This document shows positions 10,293 through 40,534 of a stretch of DNA of 49,299 nucleotides, in pieces. Position 1 is the first letter of the stretch. Each line of letters starts with the position of its first letter. Source of the DNA: an uncultured Bacillota bacterium (GTDB lineage: Bacteria > Bacillota_I > Bacilli_A > Erysipelotrichales > Erysipelotrichaceae); contig CAMNFQ010000004.1 in NCBI GenBank assembly GCA_946537295.1, positions 1-49,299 of the forward strand, in the 5' to 3' direction. The notes beneath the pieces were generated by a model that had not been told where the DNA came from, searched no databases, and saw nothing but the letters and a program-made list of their open reading frames with translations. A program made the position numbers and the translations under genes.

Positions 10293-11299
10293 TATTCCTC
10301 TTCCTCAACTGGAGCAACACTTGCTGAAGTCGCAATGCTTTCCAGAACACTGAGATTTTCATACATCAGGGAAAGATAATCCTTTCCTGATTCTGATTCA
10401 TTAGTTGTAAGTGATGAGATATTACGTAAAGTGATTCTCTTTAAGCCAAGCTCTTCTTCAAGCTGATTCATCAGAGTTACCATTTCTTCAGGCATATTTG
10501 GCTCATATGCGATAAATTTGACTTCATCATTCTTGATCCTGGTCTTGATAAGTTCCAGTTGCGCAGCACTTGGAAGTGCTCCATATTTGGAAAGACAGAC
10601 AGGATAGACCTGAAAACCGAAATCCTTCTGCCAGCAGCCAAACGACCCGGTCATAGATACAAATTTGATCGTCTTGTTTTCCTTGACAAGTCTGGTTGCC
10701 AGAGCCTGATAGGAAGCATCAAGCGCAATCAGTTCATCAGCTACCTGTTCATAGTTTTCAGTGAAATAAGATGATTGTTCAACATAGTTGTTGGAAAGAT
10801 ACTCATAGACATCCTTAGCCATGCAATACATGCCACTAGGAGAAAGCCAGATAAATGGATCCAGATCATAGACATCGATCTCATTGAAGATATCTCCTTC
10901 ATAATATGGTCCTTCAACATATGAGACCTTACCATCAACAACAACCGGTGTATAGCGCTTATACTCATAAAGACAGTTCAGCACTGACAGATCGCCAGCG
11001 GCAAGATCAATACCTTTTTCTTTGATCTCATCATCATAAAGATCCATATATGGTTCAAGATTACCAATATGAAACAGAACTGATGAATCTGAAACGATCT
11101 CATCATAGTTCTCAACCAGATTGGCACATTGGACAAGCTGTTTATTCTGGATCGAAACCGCTTCGATCCTGTTTCCACCGATCCTGTTCAGAAGATAACC
11201 GATCGGATATATCGTATATGCTGTATAGTGTTTAGCACTGCCACATCCCGTCATCAAAAGGATCAGAGCAACACAAATAATCTTTCTAATCAATTTCAT
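10292..11299 (-). CDS. ZnuA/TroA-like (cluster A-I) metal ABC substrate-binding lipoprotein, degenerate metal site
   Basis: Lipobox LLMTGC; family segments VLFHIGNLEPYMD, DLDPFIWLSP, IAYEPNMPEEM, DYLSLMYENL. No permease or ATPase adjacent. Confidence 0.75.
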   Translation of the reverse strand: MKLIRKIICVALILLMTGCGSAKHYTAYTIYPIGYLLNRIGGNRIEAVSIQNKQLVQCANLVENYDEIVSDSSVLFHIGNLEPYMDLYDDEIKEKGIDLAAGDLSVLNCLYEYKRYTPVVVDGKVSYVEGPYYEGDIFNEIDVYDLDPFIWLSPSGMYCMAKDVYEYLSNNYVEQSSYFTENYEQVADELIALDASYQALATRLVKENKTIKFVSMTGSFGCWQKDFGFQVYPVCLSKYGALPSAAQLELIKTRIKNDEVKFIAYEPNMPEEMVTLMNQLEEELGLKRITLRNISSLTTNESESGKDYLSLMYENLSVLESIATSASVAPVEEEE

Positions 11300-11309
11300 A
11301 CTCTTTTAA

Positions 11310-11921
11310 TTATACCTTATCAATCTGATATTTAGCATAGAAGATGGGCTTGCCTTCATTGACAAATTTTTCCTGATAAGCCGTCATTGGCTCGCCTTCC
11401 CGATAATAGTTCCGGTCTGTTTCAAGCTGAACGAACGATGATTCCTTGAAGTATTCAAGCGAATCATCAAAGAACGATTCATTATCGGTTTTATAGATCA
11501 GGATACCCTTATCCTTGAGAATAGTTTCGTATTTCTTTAAAAAAGGCAGATAAGTAAGACGACGCTTATGAGTGCGTTTCTTAGGCCAGGGATCAGAAAA
11601 ATGAAGATAGATCAGATCGATACTATTGGGTTTACACAGTTCATCGATCTTATCAGCATCCTTAAGCATGACTTTAAAGTTTTCAAGCTTAAGATCCTGT
11701 GCTTTTTTGATCGCTCTGGCAACACAAGTCTCTACTTTTTCCAGACCGATATATAAAACATCAGGATGAAGTGCAGCCGATTGGGTAATGAAATCTCCCA
11801 TACCCATCCCTATTTCGATATAGACAGGCTTTTCACTTTCGATATGTAAAAGATCCTCAACCAGATAGTTTTCTTCATTTTCCAGAAAAGGCGTTACCCA
11901 TTTCTTTTTTCTCATTCGCAT
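11310..11921 (-). CDS. trmB: tRNA (guanine-N7-)-methyltransferase
   Basis: IEIGMGMGDF, LHFSDPWPKKRTHKRRLTY. Start set at MRMRKKKW (ATG 11921), preceded by TATAAT-N6. Confidence 0.94.
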   Translation of the reverse strand: MRMRKKKWVTPFLENEENYLVEDLLHIESEKPVYIEIGMGMGDFITQSAALHPDVLYIGLEKVETCVARAIKKAQDLKLENFKVMLKDADKIDELCKPNSIDLIYLHFSDPWPKKRTHKRRLTYLPFLKKYETILKDKGILIYKTDNESFFDDSLEYFKESSFVQLETDRNYYREGEPMTAYQEKFVNEGKPIFYAKYQIDKV

Positions 11922-11927
11922 ACATCT

Positions 11928-11933
11928 ATTATA
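11928..11933 (-). promoter_or_regulatory. -10 TATAAT 6 nt upstream of trmB ATG (leaderless configuration)
   Basis: Reverse strand TATAAT-AGATGT-ATG. Confidence 0.65.
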
Positions 11934-11967
11934 CGGTAAAAAGAAGTAAAATAAATTGGGGGAAATA

Positions 11968-13044
11968 ATGATGAATAAAGAAAGAATAAACCGTGTCATA
12001 GCAAAAATGGAAGATAGGGATGCACTGCTGATAAGTGATCCAAATGCGATATATTACCTCATCAACAGATGGATACATCCAGGAGAAAGATTTTTAGGAT
12101 TACTGATAAATAAAAACGGTGATGTTTCACTGTTTCTGAATATCCTGTTTCCTTTTGAAGAAACAGAAGGATTAAAACTAATTTCCTATTCCGATACCGA
12201 TGATCTTACGAAACTCTTAACAAAATACATAAATAAAGACTGGATCGTAGGAGTCGATAAGAATCTGGCTGCACGTTTTCTCTTGCCAATGATCAACAAC
12301 AAAATCGCCAAAAGCTTTGTGGATGGCTCGATCTGTGTTGACAAAACCAGAGCGGTCAAAGATGAAGAAGAAAAACAGCTGATGAGAAAATCTTCTCAGA
12401 TAAACGATCAGGCCATGGCGATCTTTAAATCGCTGGCCAAAGAAGGCATCAGTGAAAAACAGATGGCTGATCAGTTTCTGGATATCTACAAGAGCTTGGG
12501 AGCTGAAGACTATTCCTTTGAACCGATCGTGGCGTTTGGCTTAAATGCTGCCGATCCACACCACATGCCAGATGAAACAAAACTTAAGGTTGGTGATGTC
12601 GTATTGATCGATGTAGGATGTAAATACAAAGGATACTGTTCTGACATGACCAGGACCTTCTTCTTCCGGAAAAAACCAGATGAGTTACAGGAAAAGATCT
12701 ACAATCTGGTGCGCAAAGCCAATGAGGATGCGGAAAAGTTTGTCAGAAAAGGTGTCAGACTGTGTGATATCGACAAGACAGCAAGAGATGTGATTGAGAA
12801 CGGTGGTTATGGCAAGTATTTTACTCATCGTCTGGGCCACTTCATCGGTATTGAAGATCATGAATATGGCGATGTATCTTCTGCGTTTACAGATCCTTGC
12901 GAAACAGACAACATCTTCTCGATCGAACCGGGAATATATGATCCTCAAACCATGGGCTGTCGAATCGAAGATCTGGTAATCGTAACAGATGAAGGATGTG
13001 AAGTACTAAATCATTATCCTCATGACATCGAAATAATTGAATAA
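11968..13044 (+). CDS. Xaa-Pro aminopeptidase family M24 peptidase
   Basis: DVVLIDVGCKYKGYCSDMTRTFF, HRLGHFIGIEDHE, SIEPGIYDPQTMGCRIEDLV; SD-like GGGGGAA upstream. Confidence 0.9.
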   Translation: MMNKERINRVIAKMEDRDALLISDPNAIYYLINRWIHPGERFLGLLINKNGDVSLFLNILFPFEETEGLKLISYSDTDDLTKLLTKYINKDWIVGVDKNLAARFLLPMINNKIAKSFVDGSICVDKTRAVKDEEEKQLMRKSSQINDQAMAIFKSLAKEGISEKQMADQFLDIYKSLGAEDYSFEPIVAFGLNAADPHHMPDETKLKVGDVVLIDVGCKYKGYCSDMTRTFFFRKKPDELQEKIYNLVRKANEDAEKFVRKGVRLCDIDKTARDVIENGGYGKYFTHRLGHFIGIEDHEYGDVSSAFTDPCETDNIFSIEPGIYDPQTMGCRIEDLVIVTDEGCEVLNHYPHDIEIIE

Positions 13045-33965: not shown

Positions 33966-34012
33966 AGATTGGCACATTATTATCACTCATAAAAAAGAGC
34001 GACCTGAGTCGC

Positions 34013-35248
34013 TCAATTTGAACCAAGTATTTTTATCAACATGATATTGGTATAGGCATAAGCTTCGATCGGATAATCTTTCATATCGATACTGTTGGAA
34101 TTGACCAGCACATGGCCATCAACGACCTTGGAAACTATTACAGTATGCGACAATCCATAATTACCAACCATGATGATATCACCAGGTTGGGCATAATAGA
34201 TGTTTGCGTTGACATCAGCTACCAGCCCTTTTCCCTCATTATCCTTGCAGTAATTATAGAAGTAACCGACATTGACCCATGATCTTGTACGGCCGGCTTT
34301 TGTCTCTTCGCCATTTATTTCCGGATCATATTCTGGATCAGTGATAAAACACTTCCATTGCAGATCCCCGTTATAATCCATAGGAAGACCACCGGAAAGA
34401 ATTGATTGAGAGGCATAGTTTTGACAATTGCCTCCTTCATCAGTGAAGTTATACCATTCCGGATTTCTGGAATGGTAATACTTGTCAGCATAAGCTACAG
34501 CGGCTGCACGATCATAATTGATAGTATAGGTCTTTGCACTGCTGTAAGGATTGGCCTGTGCCTTTGGCTTTAGGATCTCGGAATTATAGGCATACATATC
34601 CTTTAGCTGTTTCAGGAAATACTGATAGGTCTCCTCTACTTTTTCGACACTTTCTGCCTCTTCATAGATACCCATATAATAACCCTGAACCTTTTCCAGA
34701 TCCTTTATTTTATAAGCGCCATTATCTTCTACGATCTCAAAATAGTTTTCAATATCAAAAGCCTGTGATTCCAGACCATCTAAGAAGACAAAGCTCATAT
34801 AGTCATCTTCCATGACATCGACATGATAGACATTATTCTCTTGTTTATAGTTGAAGACTTTCAGATCATAATGAGCTGAATTCATCCGAAAGTCAAAATC
34901 GTACTGTTTTCTGTTTTCAATGAGAAGTCTGATCGCCTTTTCAGATACTTCCTTCATCAGATCATTAGAAAAATAAGATGAAAAATCCTGTTCCTCCAGT
35001 GTATAGATACTGCGATAATAACTGTCCATATACGAACAGATCAGATCCATGACCTCAGCTGGTACACCATAGGTATCGTCAATGTTTCCTTTAAATGATT
35101 CAGGAACACTATCATTCACAACTACAACATCATCTGATGGTTTAACTTCAGGAACATCATCTTTTTTACGATTAAGTGCCCCTAGAACCGTCAAAATAAG
35201 CATCAGTGAAAGGATAGCTATCATCACTACACTGTTTTTTACTCTCAT
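34013..35248 (-). CDS. Membrane-anchored amidase-domain (Amidase_6-like) protein
   Basis: N-terminal TM MRVKNSVVMIAILSLMLILTVL; YDRAAAVAYADKYYHSRNPEWYNFTDEGGNCQNYASQSILSGG; DIIMVGNYGLSHTVIV. Confidence 0.8.
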   Translation of the reverse strand: MRVKNSVVMIAILSLMLILTVLGALNRKKDDVPEVKPSDDVVVVNDSVPESFKGNIDDTYGVPAEVMDLICSYMDSYYRSIYTLEEQDFSSYFSNDLMKEVSEKAIRLLIENRKQYDFDFRMNSAHYDLKVFNYKQENNVYHVDVMEDDYMSFVFLDGLESQAFDIENYFEIVEDNGAYKIKDLEKVQGYYMGIYEEAESVEKVEETYQYFLKQLKDMYAYNSEILKPKAQANPYSSAKTYTINYDRAAAVAYADKYYHSRNPEWYNFTDEGGNCQNYASQSILSGGLPMDYNGDLQWKCFITDPEYDPEINGEETKAGRTRSWVNVGYFYNYCKDNEGKGLVADVNANIYYAQPGDIIMVGNYGLSHTVIVSKVVDGHVLVNSNSIDMKDYPIEAYAYTNIMLIKILGSN

Positions 35249-35254
35249 AGCAAT

Positions 35255-35260
35255 ATTATA
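35255..35260 (-). promoter_or_regulatory. -10 TATAAT 6 nt upstream of amidase ATG 35248 (leaderless configuration)
   Basis: Reverse strand TATAAT-ATTGCT-ATG. Confidence 0.65.
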
Positions 35261-35267
35261 AACCAAT

Positions 35268-36572
35268 CTACTTGACTATTCTTTTACTGATATTATCCAG
35301 TATCCTGTCTCTGCTGGAAAGATAATCCTCTTTTTCCTGTTTCGTAAAACCTTCATAGGCAACTGCTTCATAATCAGAATCAACATTCTTAAGCAGATCA
35401 GAAACTTTTGAAGGATTGTAGACATACCTGATCTTCTTTTCTTCAAATATATTCAGATCGGCGATCTTTATATAGGATAAGGCGAGCAGTTTAGCGATAG
35501 CCAAGGAAAACTCGCTTATTTTCAGTTCACTGAGACTGCATAATTCATCTGTACTGCATTCCTTATTTTTCTTGTACAGAAAATAAAGGATCTTAACCTC
35601 ATTGAGATCAAGCTTACTTTGTTGAGCAACGGTATTTAACAACTGATCCAGGAAAGCGTTTTTCAGATAATCAGCCATCCATTCGTTGTGACTGAGCTGT
35701 TTATCATAATAGATCCTGTTTCCTGTCTCCTTGCCAAGTTTCTTAGATTCAAAAAACGGAATACTCAAAGCATCAGTACTGAAAGAAACCAGATAGCTGT
35801 AGATGAACAGTTTACGGTTTTCGTAAGCTTCTTCATCAAGGATTTTTTTATAGAACTGATTGTAATATTTGATGACACTGGTCTTCATATTGACAGTACT
35901 TTCCAGATTCAAATTCTGTGATACCAGTGAGCCTTCTGTCTTGACATAGTAATAAACCGGGACCTTTAAGACATAGATGTTATCAACATGCAGAAGATAT
36001 TCAAGATTAAAGATCGTATCTTCACAATAGGAGATATTTTCGTCCATTCTGATATTGTATTTATCGATAATATCTTTGCGATACAGTTTATTCCACAAGA
36101 CACCATAATAGAAATCAGCCGGTGTCAGCATCATCTTGTCGGCATATTCGTTGCGGGATATCAGACCATCATTCTTGATGGAACCCTTCTTTGAGATCGT
36201 ATCATCAACTACCCGATAGAAATCACCGATGACCATCTGAGCGTCATTTTCTTCCATTGCCCTGACCAGCTGTTTGGTGGAATCAAAAGGAAGCCAATCA
36301 TCTACATCAAGAAACTGAATATATTCTCCGGAAGCCATAGAAAGAGCCTTATTACGGGTTGAAGAAACACCGCCATTGTTCTTGTGGACTGCTACGACTC
36401 TGTTATCTTTTTGTGCATATTCACTGATGATCTTGAAAGAATTGTCCTTGCTGCCATCATCAACAAGAATAACTTCGATATCTTTGTAGTCCTGTGCCAG
36501 GATGGAATCGACACATCTCTGCAATACTTTTTCTCCATTGTAGACAGGAACGATAATACTCACTTTACTCAT
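35268..36572 (-). CDS. GT2 family glycosyltransferase with C-terminal MarR-like winged-helix region
   Basis: VSIIVPVYNGEKVLQRCVDSILAQDYKDIEVILVDDGSKDNS, DVDDW; C-terminal segment described in findings. AAGGAG SD before ATG 36572. Confidence 0.88.
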   Translation of the reverse strand: MSKVSIIVPVYNGEKVLQRCVDSILAQDYKDIEVILVDDGSKDNSFKIISEYAQKDNRVVAVHKNNGGVSSTRNKALSMASGEYIQFLDVDDWLPFDSTKQLVRAMEENDAQMVIGDFYRVVDDTISKKGSIKNDGLISRNEYADKMMLTPADFYYGVLWNKLYRKDIIDKYNIRMDENISYCEDTIFNLEYLLHVDNIYVLKVPVYYYVKTEGSLVSQNLNLESTVNMKTSVIKYYNQFYKKILDEEAYENRKLFIYSYLVSFSTDALSIPFFESKKLGKETGNRIYYDKQLSHNEWMADYLKNAFLDQLLNTVAQQSKLDLNEVKILYFLYKKNKECSTDELCSLSELKISEFSLAIAKLLALSYIKIADLNIFEEKKIRYVYNPSKVSDLLKNVDSDYEAVAYEGFTKQEKEDYLSSRDRILDNISKRIVK

Positions 36573-37104
36573 TGTTTTTCTCCTTGAACAGTACAAATTT
36601 TTCTAAAGGGTATAACACGATAAACTGAACCCAGCCAGCTGCCCAGGCTGCGATCGTACGGGAAAGAAAAGCTACCTTGCTTCTCGAAAGCAAGCCGGCG
36701 ATCAATCCCTGCAACCAGGTCGTAAATAGAATCAGGGCAATAAGCACCACAAAATAGACGATCAGACCCTTTCTTGTTCCTTTACCCTTAAAGGTCATTT
36801 TCATGTTGACGAAATAGCCATAGACATTTGCCAGAAAATTTGAAAGGAAAAATGGCAGAACATAGCCCCAGGTCACAACACCATCGACCAGATATTTTGC
36901 ATCTAATCCACCAAGACTTTCTGTATTAAATATCACTCTTAAAAAAACGGGGAGCTTAACCCTAAAGCCATCAAAAACAAGTGGCAGGATATTTGCTAAG
37001 ATCAGTTGCAGAAATTGAATACTGTAACCTACTATATTAAATTTGATGAATTGCCATAAATTATTATTGCCATATTTTTCTTCTAATCTGCTGTATAACG
37101 CCAT
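36565..37104 (-). CDS. GtrA-like membrane protein
   Basis: FIKFNIVGYSIQFLQLILANILP...FFLSNFLANVYGYFVNMKMTFKG; four TM layout next to GT2. Confidence 0.75.
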   Translation of the reverse strand: MALYSRLEEKYGNNNLWQFIKFNIVGYSIQFLQLILANILPLVFDGFRVKLPVFLRVIFNTESLGGLDAKYLVDGVVTWGYVLPFFLSNFLANVYGYFVNMKMTFKGKGTRKGLIVYFVVLIALILFTTWLQGLIAGLLSRSKVAFLSRTIAAWAAGWVQFIVLYPLEKFVLFKEKNNE

Positions 37105-37159
37105 ATAAACTTTTTTACTCCATTAACACATTATAGCCTATTTCATGTTGATTACCTAA

Positions 37160-37185
37160 AAAGAAAAAGCCGTAACACAGCTTTT
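37160..37185 (-). terminator. Terminator of HAD hydrolase transcript
   Basis: Reverse strand AAAAGCTGT-GTT-ACGGCTTTTTCTTTTT. Confidence 0.75.
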
Positions 37186-37827: not shown

Positions 37828-38910
37828 CTACTGTTTTACTCTTATATCAATTCGATTAGGATACTCTCCTTCTGTTTCTGAGAATCTGATATCTGAAACG
37901 CGACTCATCAATATTTTGAAGGAGACGCTTTCTTCATCAATCGTCAGTTTCTTTCCTTTATAACCTATATGCATATCAATAGTAGAATTCTTCTCGGAAT
38001 ACTCTATTTCCAATCTGATATCCCTGTAGTTGTTTTCGTTGACCATTATCTGCTGGACAAGTTCTTCACTTATCGAAAGCAGATACATGGCATATTTATG
38101 TGCGATCCTGTTTTTGAAACAGTATTTCTCGATCTCACCATATGATCTGGCAAAATCAAAAGATCGACCCTTGATCACAAAACTGATCGTTCGAAGTTTC
38201 TCAATAAAGATCCTGGTCTTTTCCTTTTTAGGATTGTCAAATATTTCTTCCGGGCTTCCCTGTTCATAGATGATGCCATCATCCATATAAAAGACTCTAT
38301 TGGCGATCTGTCTGGCAAAATGCATTTCATGTGTGACGATCATCATCGTTTTACCTGTTCGGGAAAGTTCAGTTATGACTGACATGACTTCCGAAGACAT
38401 GGTCGGATCTAATGCGCTGGTCGGTTCATCAAAAAGGATAACTTCCGGATCATTGATCAATGTTCTGACGATCGCAACTCTTTGCTTCTGGCCACCGGAA
38501 AGACTATCCGGATAGGAAAAGGCATTTGCGCTAAGACCAACAGTCTCCAGTAGAGCAATACCTTTATCATAAGCTTCCTGTCTGCTCAATAATTTCAGTT
38601 TGACTGGAGCATACATGATATTTTCAATTACGGTCATATGTTCAAAAAGATTGAAAGACTGAAAGACCATACCGATCTTACGCCTGACCTGATGAACATC
38701 GACATTCTTATCAAGGATATTTACTCCATCTACTACGATTCTTCCACTATCTGGCCTTTCCAAAAGATTCAGGCAACGTAATAAAGTTGATTTTCCAGTG
38801 CCACTAGGACCGATAATCGAAATAATATCCCCATCATTTATCGTTGCATTGACATCCTGAAGCGGGACAGCATTTTCATATTCCTTACGCAAATGAGATA
38901 TCTCGATCAT
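37828..38910 (-). CDS. Amino acid ABC transporter ATP-binding protein with extra C-terminal domain
   Basis: GPSGTGKSTLLRCLNLLERPDSG, LSGGQKQRVAIVRTL, LFDEPTSALDPTM; about 115-aa C-terminal extension. Confidence 0.92.
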   Translation of the reverse strand: MIEISHLRKEYENAVPLQDVNATINDGDIISIIGPSGTGKSTLLRCLNLLERPDSGRIVVDGVNILDKNVDVHQVRRKIGMVFQSFNLFEHMTVIENIMYAPVKLKLLSRQEAYDKGIALLETVGLSANAFSYPDSLSGGQKQRVAIVRTLINDPEVILFDEPTSALDPTMSSEVMSVITELSRTGKTMMIVTHEMHFARQIANRVFYMDDGIIYEQGSPEEIFDNPKKEKTRIFIEKLRTISFVIKGRSFDFARSYGEIEKYCFKNRIAHKYAMYLLSISEELVQQIMVNENNYRDIRLEIEYSEKNSTIDMHIGYKGKKLTIDEESVSFKILMSRVSDIRFSETEGEYPNRIDIRVKQ

Positions 38911-40445
38911 AGTTTTATCCCCCTGGTAATCTGCTGTTTAGTACGCAGTTTCGGATCAGTATAAAGCGTGATCTTGTTTACGATATAGATCATGATGGCA
39001 GCTAAAGCGAAATAGATTATTGCGACTGCAATTAAAGGAAAGAAAGCTTCATATGTCCGGCTTCTGACGATATCTGACATCTTGGTCAGATCCTGAACAG
39101 TAATATAGCCAACAACAGCAGTTGCCTTGATCAGCGCTGAGATATTTCCTTTATAGCCTGGTAAGAAGATCCTCGCTGCCTGAGGAAGAATGATATCAAA
39201 GAAAGCCTGTCTGTCATTAATTCCCAAGGCATAGGCAGCTTCCAGCTGTTTATCATCTATTGCCTTAACACCGGTTTTTATGTTGCCGAAAACTGAGCAG
39301 GAAAAAGTTAGTGAGAAGGCAATTATTGAAACACTGAGTGCACTGATTCGAGTCTTTCCTAAAATCACATAGTAAAGGATCATCAGCAAGACTACTATCG
39401 GCAAACCCTCGATCAGCCAGACCAGAAGATCCAGAATTTTTCTGATAAGTGAATTGCCATTGCGATACAGCAGATAGATCGCAAAACCCAATATCGTTCC
39501 AAAAATGATCGCAGATATTGTGATCAGGATCGTTGTAGCGATACCTTGCAAGAAATAAAGATAACGGTTTTCTTCAATGAAAGTTCTGCGGAAACTGTTG
39601 GCGATCCTATCAACAAATGAACTGTTTCCACCATCCACATCATAGACAACAAAGATCAGATCATCATTAAGATTAGGAACAGAGAAATAGACTGATTCAG
39701 CCCTCTCTTCCGTAATAGCAATATCTGAACCGGCAAAATCACATTTACCTGATTCAAGGCTTGGAATCAGGGCATCAAAATCCATTGTATATGGTTCAAT
39801 ACTATATCCATATGCCTGGGCAAAACGATAAGCTATATCAACATCATAGCCGATCAGTTCGCCATTGCGATAATAATCATTTGGCGGGAATGTTCCCTCT
39901 GTAGCAAATCTCAATGTTCCATTAGGACCATTAAGACTTCTGTAATCAAGGACGTTTTTAACTGACTCATCATTTCCCTGCCAGATGTCTTTTATTTCAT
40001 TCAATGTTCCCTGTTTATCAAGTTCATTGATGAATTCATCCATCTGATTTTTCAGTTTAAGGCCATTCTCGTTTTTAGGAAAGATGTATCCGGCTTCAAT
40101 ATGACCAAATGGTTCATCAATAATAGCGAGCTGTTCATCTTCATGAAGATAGGTAGAGATGACCATCTTGCTGATAGGAAAAGCATCGATCTTTCCGGCC
40201 TTTAGAGCAGTAAGTTGATCAGTAAGATTATTGAAATACAGAATCTTGGCATCAGGCATTATTTCTGAAATGATCTCAGCATAGATCGTTCCAACCTTGA
40301 CACCGATGTTTTTATCAGCAAGATCTGAAATACTTTCATATTGGTGCTTTCTACTGTTGTCTGCACAGGAAAAACATCCTAAAAGCAGTAATGATAGTAA
40401 CAATACTTTAAAGATATTTATGATAGTCTTATCTTTTCTGCTCAT
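38907..40445 (-). CDS. Amino acid ABC transporter SBP-permease fusion
   Basis: Lipoprotein signal (LLLGCFSC), SBP_bac_3-like segments, His/Glu-type permease (GIATTILITISAIIFGTILGF, EGLPIVVLLMILYYVI). The ORF-track start at 40520 lies inside the gapA terminator, so ATG 40445 is preferred. Confidence 0.88.
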   Translation of the reverse strand: MSRKDKTIINIFKVLLLSLLLLGCFSCADNSRKHQYESISDLADKNIGVKVGTIYAEIISEIMPDAKILYFNNLTDQLTALKAGKIDAFPISKMVISTYLHEDEQLAIIDEPFGHIEAGYIFPKNENGLKLKNQMDEFINELDKQGTLNEIKDIWQGNDESVKNVLDYRSLNGPNGTLRFATEGTFPPNDYYRNGELIGYDVDIAYRFAQAYGYSIEPYTMDFDALIPSLESGKCDFAGSDIAITEERAESVYFSVPNLNDDLIFVVYDVDGGNSSFVDRIANSFRRTFIEENRYLYFLQGIATTILITISAIIFGTILGFAIYLLYRNGNSLIRKILDLLVWLIEGLPIVVLLMILYYVILGKTRISALSVSIIAFSLTFSCSVFGNIKTGVKAIDDKQLEAAYALGINDRQAFFDIILPQAARIFLPGYKGNISALIKATAVVGYITVQDLTKMSDIVRSRTYEAFFPLIAVAIIYFALAAIMIYIVNKITLYTDPKLRTKQQITRGIKL

Positions 40446-40501
40446 CTTATAAATAATGATATCATTTACTACCTGTTTTTCAGAATTTAAATAGACTAGA
40501 A

Positions 40502-40534
40502 ACAAAAAAACGGAGATCACGAGATCTCCGTTTC
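40502..40534 (-). terminator. gapA terminator
   Basis: Reverse strand AAACGGAGATC-TCGT-GATCTCCGTTTTTTTG. Confidence 0.9.

Follow-up and report, generated by a model that had tools for sequence, protein, structure and literature searches.

Here, we report that a gene in the window, i.e., the whole stretch of 49,299 nucleotides that was analysed, encodes a family 2 glycosyltransferase (GT2) that carries a full MarR-type winged-helix domain at its C-terminus. This fusion belongs to a widespread protein family in which all 110 members examined retain the MarR tail, its wing has largely eroded and the helices corresponding to the dimerisation arm have remained conserved. We give a probability of roughly 0.6 to the reading that the enzyme captured the MarR domain as a dimerisation, and possibly ligand-binding, module that is no longer mainly used for DNA binding.

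The fusion gene occupies positions 35268-36572 on the minus strand. Its start is likely the ATG at 36572, which gives a translation of 434 residues and is shared by equally long orthologues from the window's genus and its neighbours (55-62% identity over the full length). An earlier note on this DNA had described a protein of 442 residues; the reading frame was correct, while the start had probably been placed too far upstream, at a TTG codon. The tail of 128 residues quoted there is encoded exactly at 35271-35654, followed by the stop codon at 35268-35270. Considering that the window genome is a fragmented draft of 149 contigs, one could imagine that an assembly or frameshift error joined two separate genes. 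However, such an artefact is ruled out because the frame is intact in those other genomes at this level of full-length identity, and 110 members, spread over several bacterial families and many separately assembled genomes, each have a single open frame, which makes the chance of an artificial fusion negligible.

Identification of the tail depended on its relatives. With the window sequence alone, profile matches were weak (Pfam SarA/Rot, E 0.06; NCBIfam MreA, E 5.5e-4), and nothing convincing was found in PDB by a single-sequence search with the window protein. As searches with one sequence yielded too little, profiles had to be built from orthologues. Relatives were collected from whole genomes and GTDB contigs, and 62 full-length proteins were aligned, with their tails aligned separately. 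The profile of the 62 orthologous tails matched MarR crystal structures, including 2fa5 (E 3.1e-10), 2fbh (6.7e-10) and SlyA (2.4e-9); the matched PDB MarR structures span E-values from 3.1e-10 to 1e-6, and the alignments take in the C-terminal arm. Pfam MarR_2 matches 34 of the 62 tails individually, with a best E-value of 8.7e-10 and some matches above the curated cut-off.

The predicted structure agrees with these profiles. In the AlphaFold model (pLDDT 94.7 for the tail; pLDDT 90.1 and pTM 0.88 for the full protein), the tail has the complete layout a1-a2-a3-a4-b2-wing-b3-a5-a6. Helix a1, which is part of the dimerisation arm in MarR proteins, covers residues 302-318 (35619-35669, minus strand, as are all features below), and the recognition helix a4 covers residues 352-364 (35481-35519). 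The b2-wing-b3 element with its degenerate wing spans residues 368-385 (35418-35471; strands 368-372 and 382-385), and the other arm helices, a5 (390-405) and a6 (411-432), lie within residues 390-432 (35277-35405). When the tail model was compared with PDB by Foldseek, the best 50 matches were nearly all MarR proteins (E <0.001, probability 1.00). These analyses confirmed residues 300-434 (35271-35675) as a full MarR domain. The weak match of the single sequence might have indicated an ordinary GT2 helical bundle that resembles MarR by accident, but the profile, the Pfam matches, the full topology of six helices plus wing and the nearly uniform Foldseek result refute this idea, and we consider it hardly credible.

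The fusion proposed by the earlier note, together with the recognition helix, the wing and the C-terminal dimerisation helices that it had pointed out, was thus borne out by the profile searches, the predicted fold and the structure comparison, including the Foldseek comparison with MarR structures that it had suggested. The assignment of the last ~128 residues needs a small correction, since the domain is of MarR type as claimed, but it begins slightly earlier, with a1 at residue ~302 (window ~35669).

The N-terminal part, residues 1-215 (35928-36572), is a GT-A/GT2 catalytic domain according to Pfam, invariant motifs and Foldseek, with a Glycos_transf_2 (PF00535) match of E 8e-40 over residues 5-171. 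The DxDD metal/nucleotide motif, here DVDD at residues 89-92 (36297-36308), aligns with DSDD of TarS, and E184-D185 (36018-36023) align with the 'AED' motif of TarS (5tze), in which D178 is the proposed base (PMC5156392). D89, D91, D92, E184 and D185 are all invariant in 62/62 members. Between the catalytic domain and the tail lies a helical connector, residues 216-299 (35676-35927), with AlphaFold helices at 223-244 and 247-262 and a mean identity of 39% across the family. The nearest PDB folds found by Foldseek with the full-length model were Streptococcus GalT1/CgT, TarS, TarP and RmlT, which share the catalytic domain with its DxD and E-D motifs. No membrane helices are evident in this GT2, and the protein is best read as a cytoplasmic inverting GT2 of the cell-surface-glycan type.

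TarS is also of interest with regard to the tail. It trimerises via C-terminal carbohydrate-binding modules, and truncated TarS is still active although less processive (PMC5156392). Thus, TarS has a C-terminal oligomerisation domain as is proposed for the fusion, but it uses stacked carbohydrate-binding modules where the fusion would use a MarR domain. This resemblance suggests that the MarR tail, in a TarS-like position, may be an analogous and independently acquired oligomerisation module. Wall teichoic acid is no obvious acceptor, because PF04464 (CDP-glycerol glycerophosphotransferase) is absent from the window genome, whose completeness is estimated at 95%, and on this ground the acceptor class of TarS/TarP-type wall-teichoic-acid transferases was rejected.

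The search for further GT2-MarR fusions, which the earlier note had recommended without knowing how widespread they are, revealed a wide distribution. A scan of GTDB contigs identified at least 80 loci in Erysipelotrichaceae, Lachnospiraceae, Oscillospiraceae and Christensenellaceae as well as in Olsenella and Pseudoscardovia (Actinomycetota). The fusion is found in 80 of the 273 genomes of the window's family, in one copy each except for a single genome with two. In this genome (G003; contigs C9 and C58), the copies share 60% and 57% identity with the window protein; its contamination estimate is 6%, and it is possibly a mixed bin. Seven genomes of other lineages were found to have exactly one GT2-MarR each, separated by a wide score gap (5e-168 or better for the fusion gene versus 2e-54 for the best other GT2). 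No plasmid carriage of the fusion was found. Two unannotated faecal 'Bacteriophage sp.' records, MT839439.1 and MT837809.1, encode GT2 relatives with 45-49% identity; these records are probably bacterial contigs that were deposited under a phage name.

The tail is present in all 110 members examined, and the distances of the glycosyltransferase domain and the tail are correlated (Mantel r 0.69; 0/2000 permutations), showing that tail and enzyme have diverged together in a family that is normally single-copy. In the tree of the glycosyltransferase domain, a branch with support 100/99 separates the 62 fused proteins from four tail-less GT2s, which are few and have long branches. Since all members examined have the tail, the distances co-vary and the fused proteins share one side of the tree, it is most likely that the fusion is old and has been inherited as a unit. 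No description of a GT2-MarR fusion was found in the open literature that was searched, and we regard the family as undescribed only provisionally.

To characterize the fused domain further, the 62 tails were compared with 33 MarR domains found with the same profile, all registered to one model; 31 of these controls are apparently free-standing and two are located at the N-terminus of a radical-SAM enzyme. Mean identity is comparable in the two sets (26% for fused tails and 24% for controls), while conservation is distributed differently. The fused tails are less conserved than free MarR in the wing (0.88 versus 1.55 bits) and in the recognition helix (1.49 versus 1.74 bits), and more conserved in a1 (1.92 versus 1.03 bits), where the fused domain is most strongly conserved, and in a5 (1.43 versus 0.98 bits), with a6 unchanged. 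The key wing position is basic in 33/33 controls (Arg 88%) but in only 32% of fused tails (Arg 11%), and mean net charge of the wing is +0.21 in fused tails versus +1.70 in free MarR (0/5000 permutations). These differences should be read with the caveat that the compared sequences are related, that the controls were picked by their similarity to the fused profile and that the wing alignment is gappy. The arginine of the wing makes a minor-groove contact that has been put forward as a general feature of the MarR family (PMC2650471), and erosion of this residue lowers the likelihood of DNA binding, as far as can be judged from the alignments. In comparison with MarR/SlyA regulators (3cjn, SlyA, MarR and OhrR), the fused domain retains the whole fold, detected at a profile E-value of 3e-10, and the conserved arm helices; it differs in being the tail of an enzyme, in having lost most of the wing arginine and wing conservation, and in that no operator was found.

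These results bear directly on the proposal of the earlier note that the GT2 might be a moonlighting regulator of the GtrA/GT2/amidase cluster. Such a protein would use the MarR domain to bind DNA and would repress the unit that encodes it, or other genes. Although the winged-helix fold is complete, basic pairs are retained in the wings of 24/62 members and the recognition helix of the fused tails is basic on average (+1.35), the wing arginine is mostly gone and the conservation of the wing has collapsed. In the window protein, the column of the wing arginine is occupied by Glu, and HTH plus wing have a net charge of -1 versus a mean of +3.15 for free MarR. Upstream of the window unit, no palindrome of 6 bp was found besides the terminator hairpin, so that autoregulation at 37105-37140 was rejected; orthologous upstream regions share no operator-like palindrome, and gene context varies across the family. 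Among the three roles that had been offered, regulation is the least supported, and we think it rather improbable. A related and even more doubtful idea is that members with a basic wing, above all those of Lachnospiraceae and Oscillospiraceae, some of which have KR pairs in the wing, bind DNA in one substrate state of the catalytic domain, so that the glycosyltransferase would report envelope-precursor supply to transcription, whereas the window's clade lost DNA binding and kept the allosteric dimer. If this were true, the DNA-binding members would provide a direct link of glycan synthesis to gene control.

Dimerisation fits best among these roles, given that conservation has shifted from the wing to a1 and a5. 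In MarR proteins the dimer arm is formed by a1, a5 and a6 (PMC2650471), and the corresponding helices of the fusion probably join two enzyme subunits in the same way. On the other hand, the higher conservation of a1 could come from packing on the glycosyltransferase domain instead of dimerisation. Two further observations do not favour the preferred reading: the wing of the window protein keeps K379, K380 and R382 close to the lost arginine, and GtrA, the partner considered below, is adjacent in just 23/74 contexts. A small ligand or the acceptor may additionally sit between the arm and the winged helix. In a stronger version of this idea, a metabolite bound at that interface, such as a lipid intermediate, a phenolic or a nucleotide sugar, would rearrange the two catalytic domains and switch the glycosyltransferase on or off. 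It is in this interface that MarR proteins classically bind their ligands (PMC2650471), and the fusion has kept the entire fold and not the arms alone, with a2 and a3 still conserved and a well-defined overall arrangement of the model (pTM 0.88). However, the conserved positions of the tail are mostly in the hydrophobic core or at helix caps, no conserved polar pocket was identified and no ligand is named by the neighbouring genes. We therefore regard such a sensor as unlikely, if still worth considering beside the captured dimerisation module.

In the window, the fusion gene is the middle one of a three-gene unit (GtrA, GT2-MarR and Amidase_6) flanked by terminator-like hairpins at 37165-37185, before the GtrA gene, and 33997-34014, after the Amidase_6 gene, where the unit closes. 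The GtrA-like membrane protein gene (36565-37104; PF04138 at E 3e-4, below the curated cut-off) is preceded by a TATAAT -10-like element, read from the sequence at 37130-37135, 25 bases before its start, and a similar TATAAT occurs in several orthologous upstream regions. The end of the GtrA coding region overlaps the start of GT2-MarR, and the two genes are translationally coupled in the window. Among the 23 contexts that have a GtrA homologue directly upstream on the same strand are members of the window's clade (23 rows) from Erysipelotrichaceae as well as from Clostridia. In this clade, the enzyme may work together with the GtrA-like protein, which would bring the enzyme or its lipid-linked product to the membrane. 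The next gene downstream encodes an Amidase_6 protein (34013-35266; PF12671, 4e-26), a neighbour (cluster c3) seen in 8 contexts and conserved only near the window. A family-wide conserved operon was rejected, as neighbours vary and GtrA is restricted to a single clade plus a small number of related members.

In a Solobacterium-like clade, a gene for a GH3 beta-glucosidase-like protein of ~780 residues lies directly downstream of GT2-MarR in place of Amidase_6 (L085, L088, L091, L094, L099, L106, L108, L111, L113, L121 and L128). Farther upstream in the window, 38907-40520 encodes a protein of 537 residues that, from its translation, apparently combines an ABC permease with a solute-binding domain; an ATPase gene (37828-38910) adjoins it.

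A GT2 and a GtrA-family protein, with or without YfhO, make up glycosylation systems such as CsbB-GtcA-YfhO, which the window's clade resembles in having a GT2 beside a GtrA-family gene. Differently from such systems, the fusion GT2 is without evident membrane helices and the GtrA neighbour is missing in most of the wider family. A three-part system of this kind was rejected, as the occurrence of YfhO does not track the fusion: it is missing in half of the genus members carrying the fusion, and genomes with the fusion but no YfhO are G006, G014, G028, G031, G012, G025 and G033, several of which are incomplete. In the window genome itself, a YfhO-type GT-C membrane protein is present as a fragment at a contig edge (G000:C108:11-631; L169).

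MarR domains are found on other enzymes as well, and MarR-GNAT proteins are one such fusion known from annotation practice. In the window genome, a protein encoded at L131:1417-2562 (G000:C10, about 11035-12180) has an N-terminal MarR domain on a radical-SAM protein resembling the anaerobic ribonucleotide-reductase activase, and its gene is directly upstream of an NrdD-like gene. It shares with the GT2 fusion the presence of MarR on an enzyme, but its MarR domain is N-terminal, has an intact, basic wing (DKRSK) and lies beside an apparent target gene, whereas that of the GT2 fusion is C-terminal with a degraded wing. The L131 protein could be a genuine regulator-enzyme fusion. The same type occurs in G015 (L047), and MarR-matching ORFs of 380-397 residues in several genomes may also belong to it.

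Taken as a whole, the GT2-MarR proteins form an enzyme family that is widespread in gut Bacillota and usually present in a single copy, and sequence libraries match them as generic family 2 glycosyltransferase only. They appear to present a transcription-factor domain reused as part of an enzyme and, with the wing lost and the dimer arms kept, would offer a clean test case for repurposing of a DNA-binding fold. For annotators, a MarR match in such proteins should not be taken as a sign of a regulator. For the bacteria themselves, the acceptor glycan of GT2-MarR would be one that occurs in many common gut lineages.
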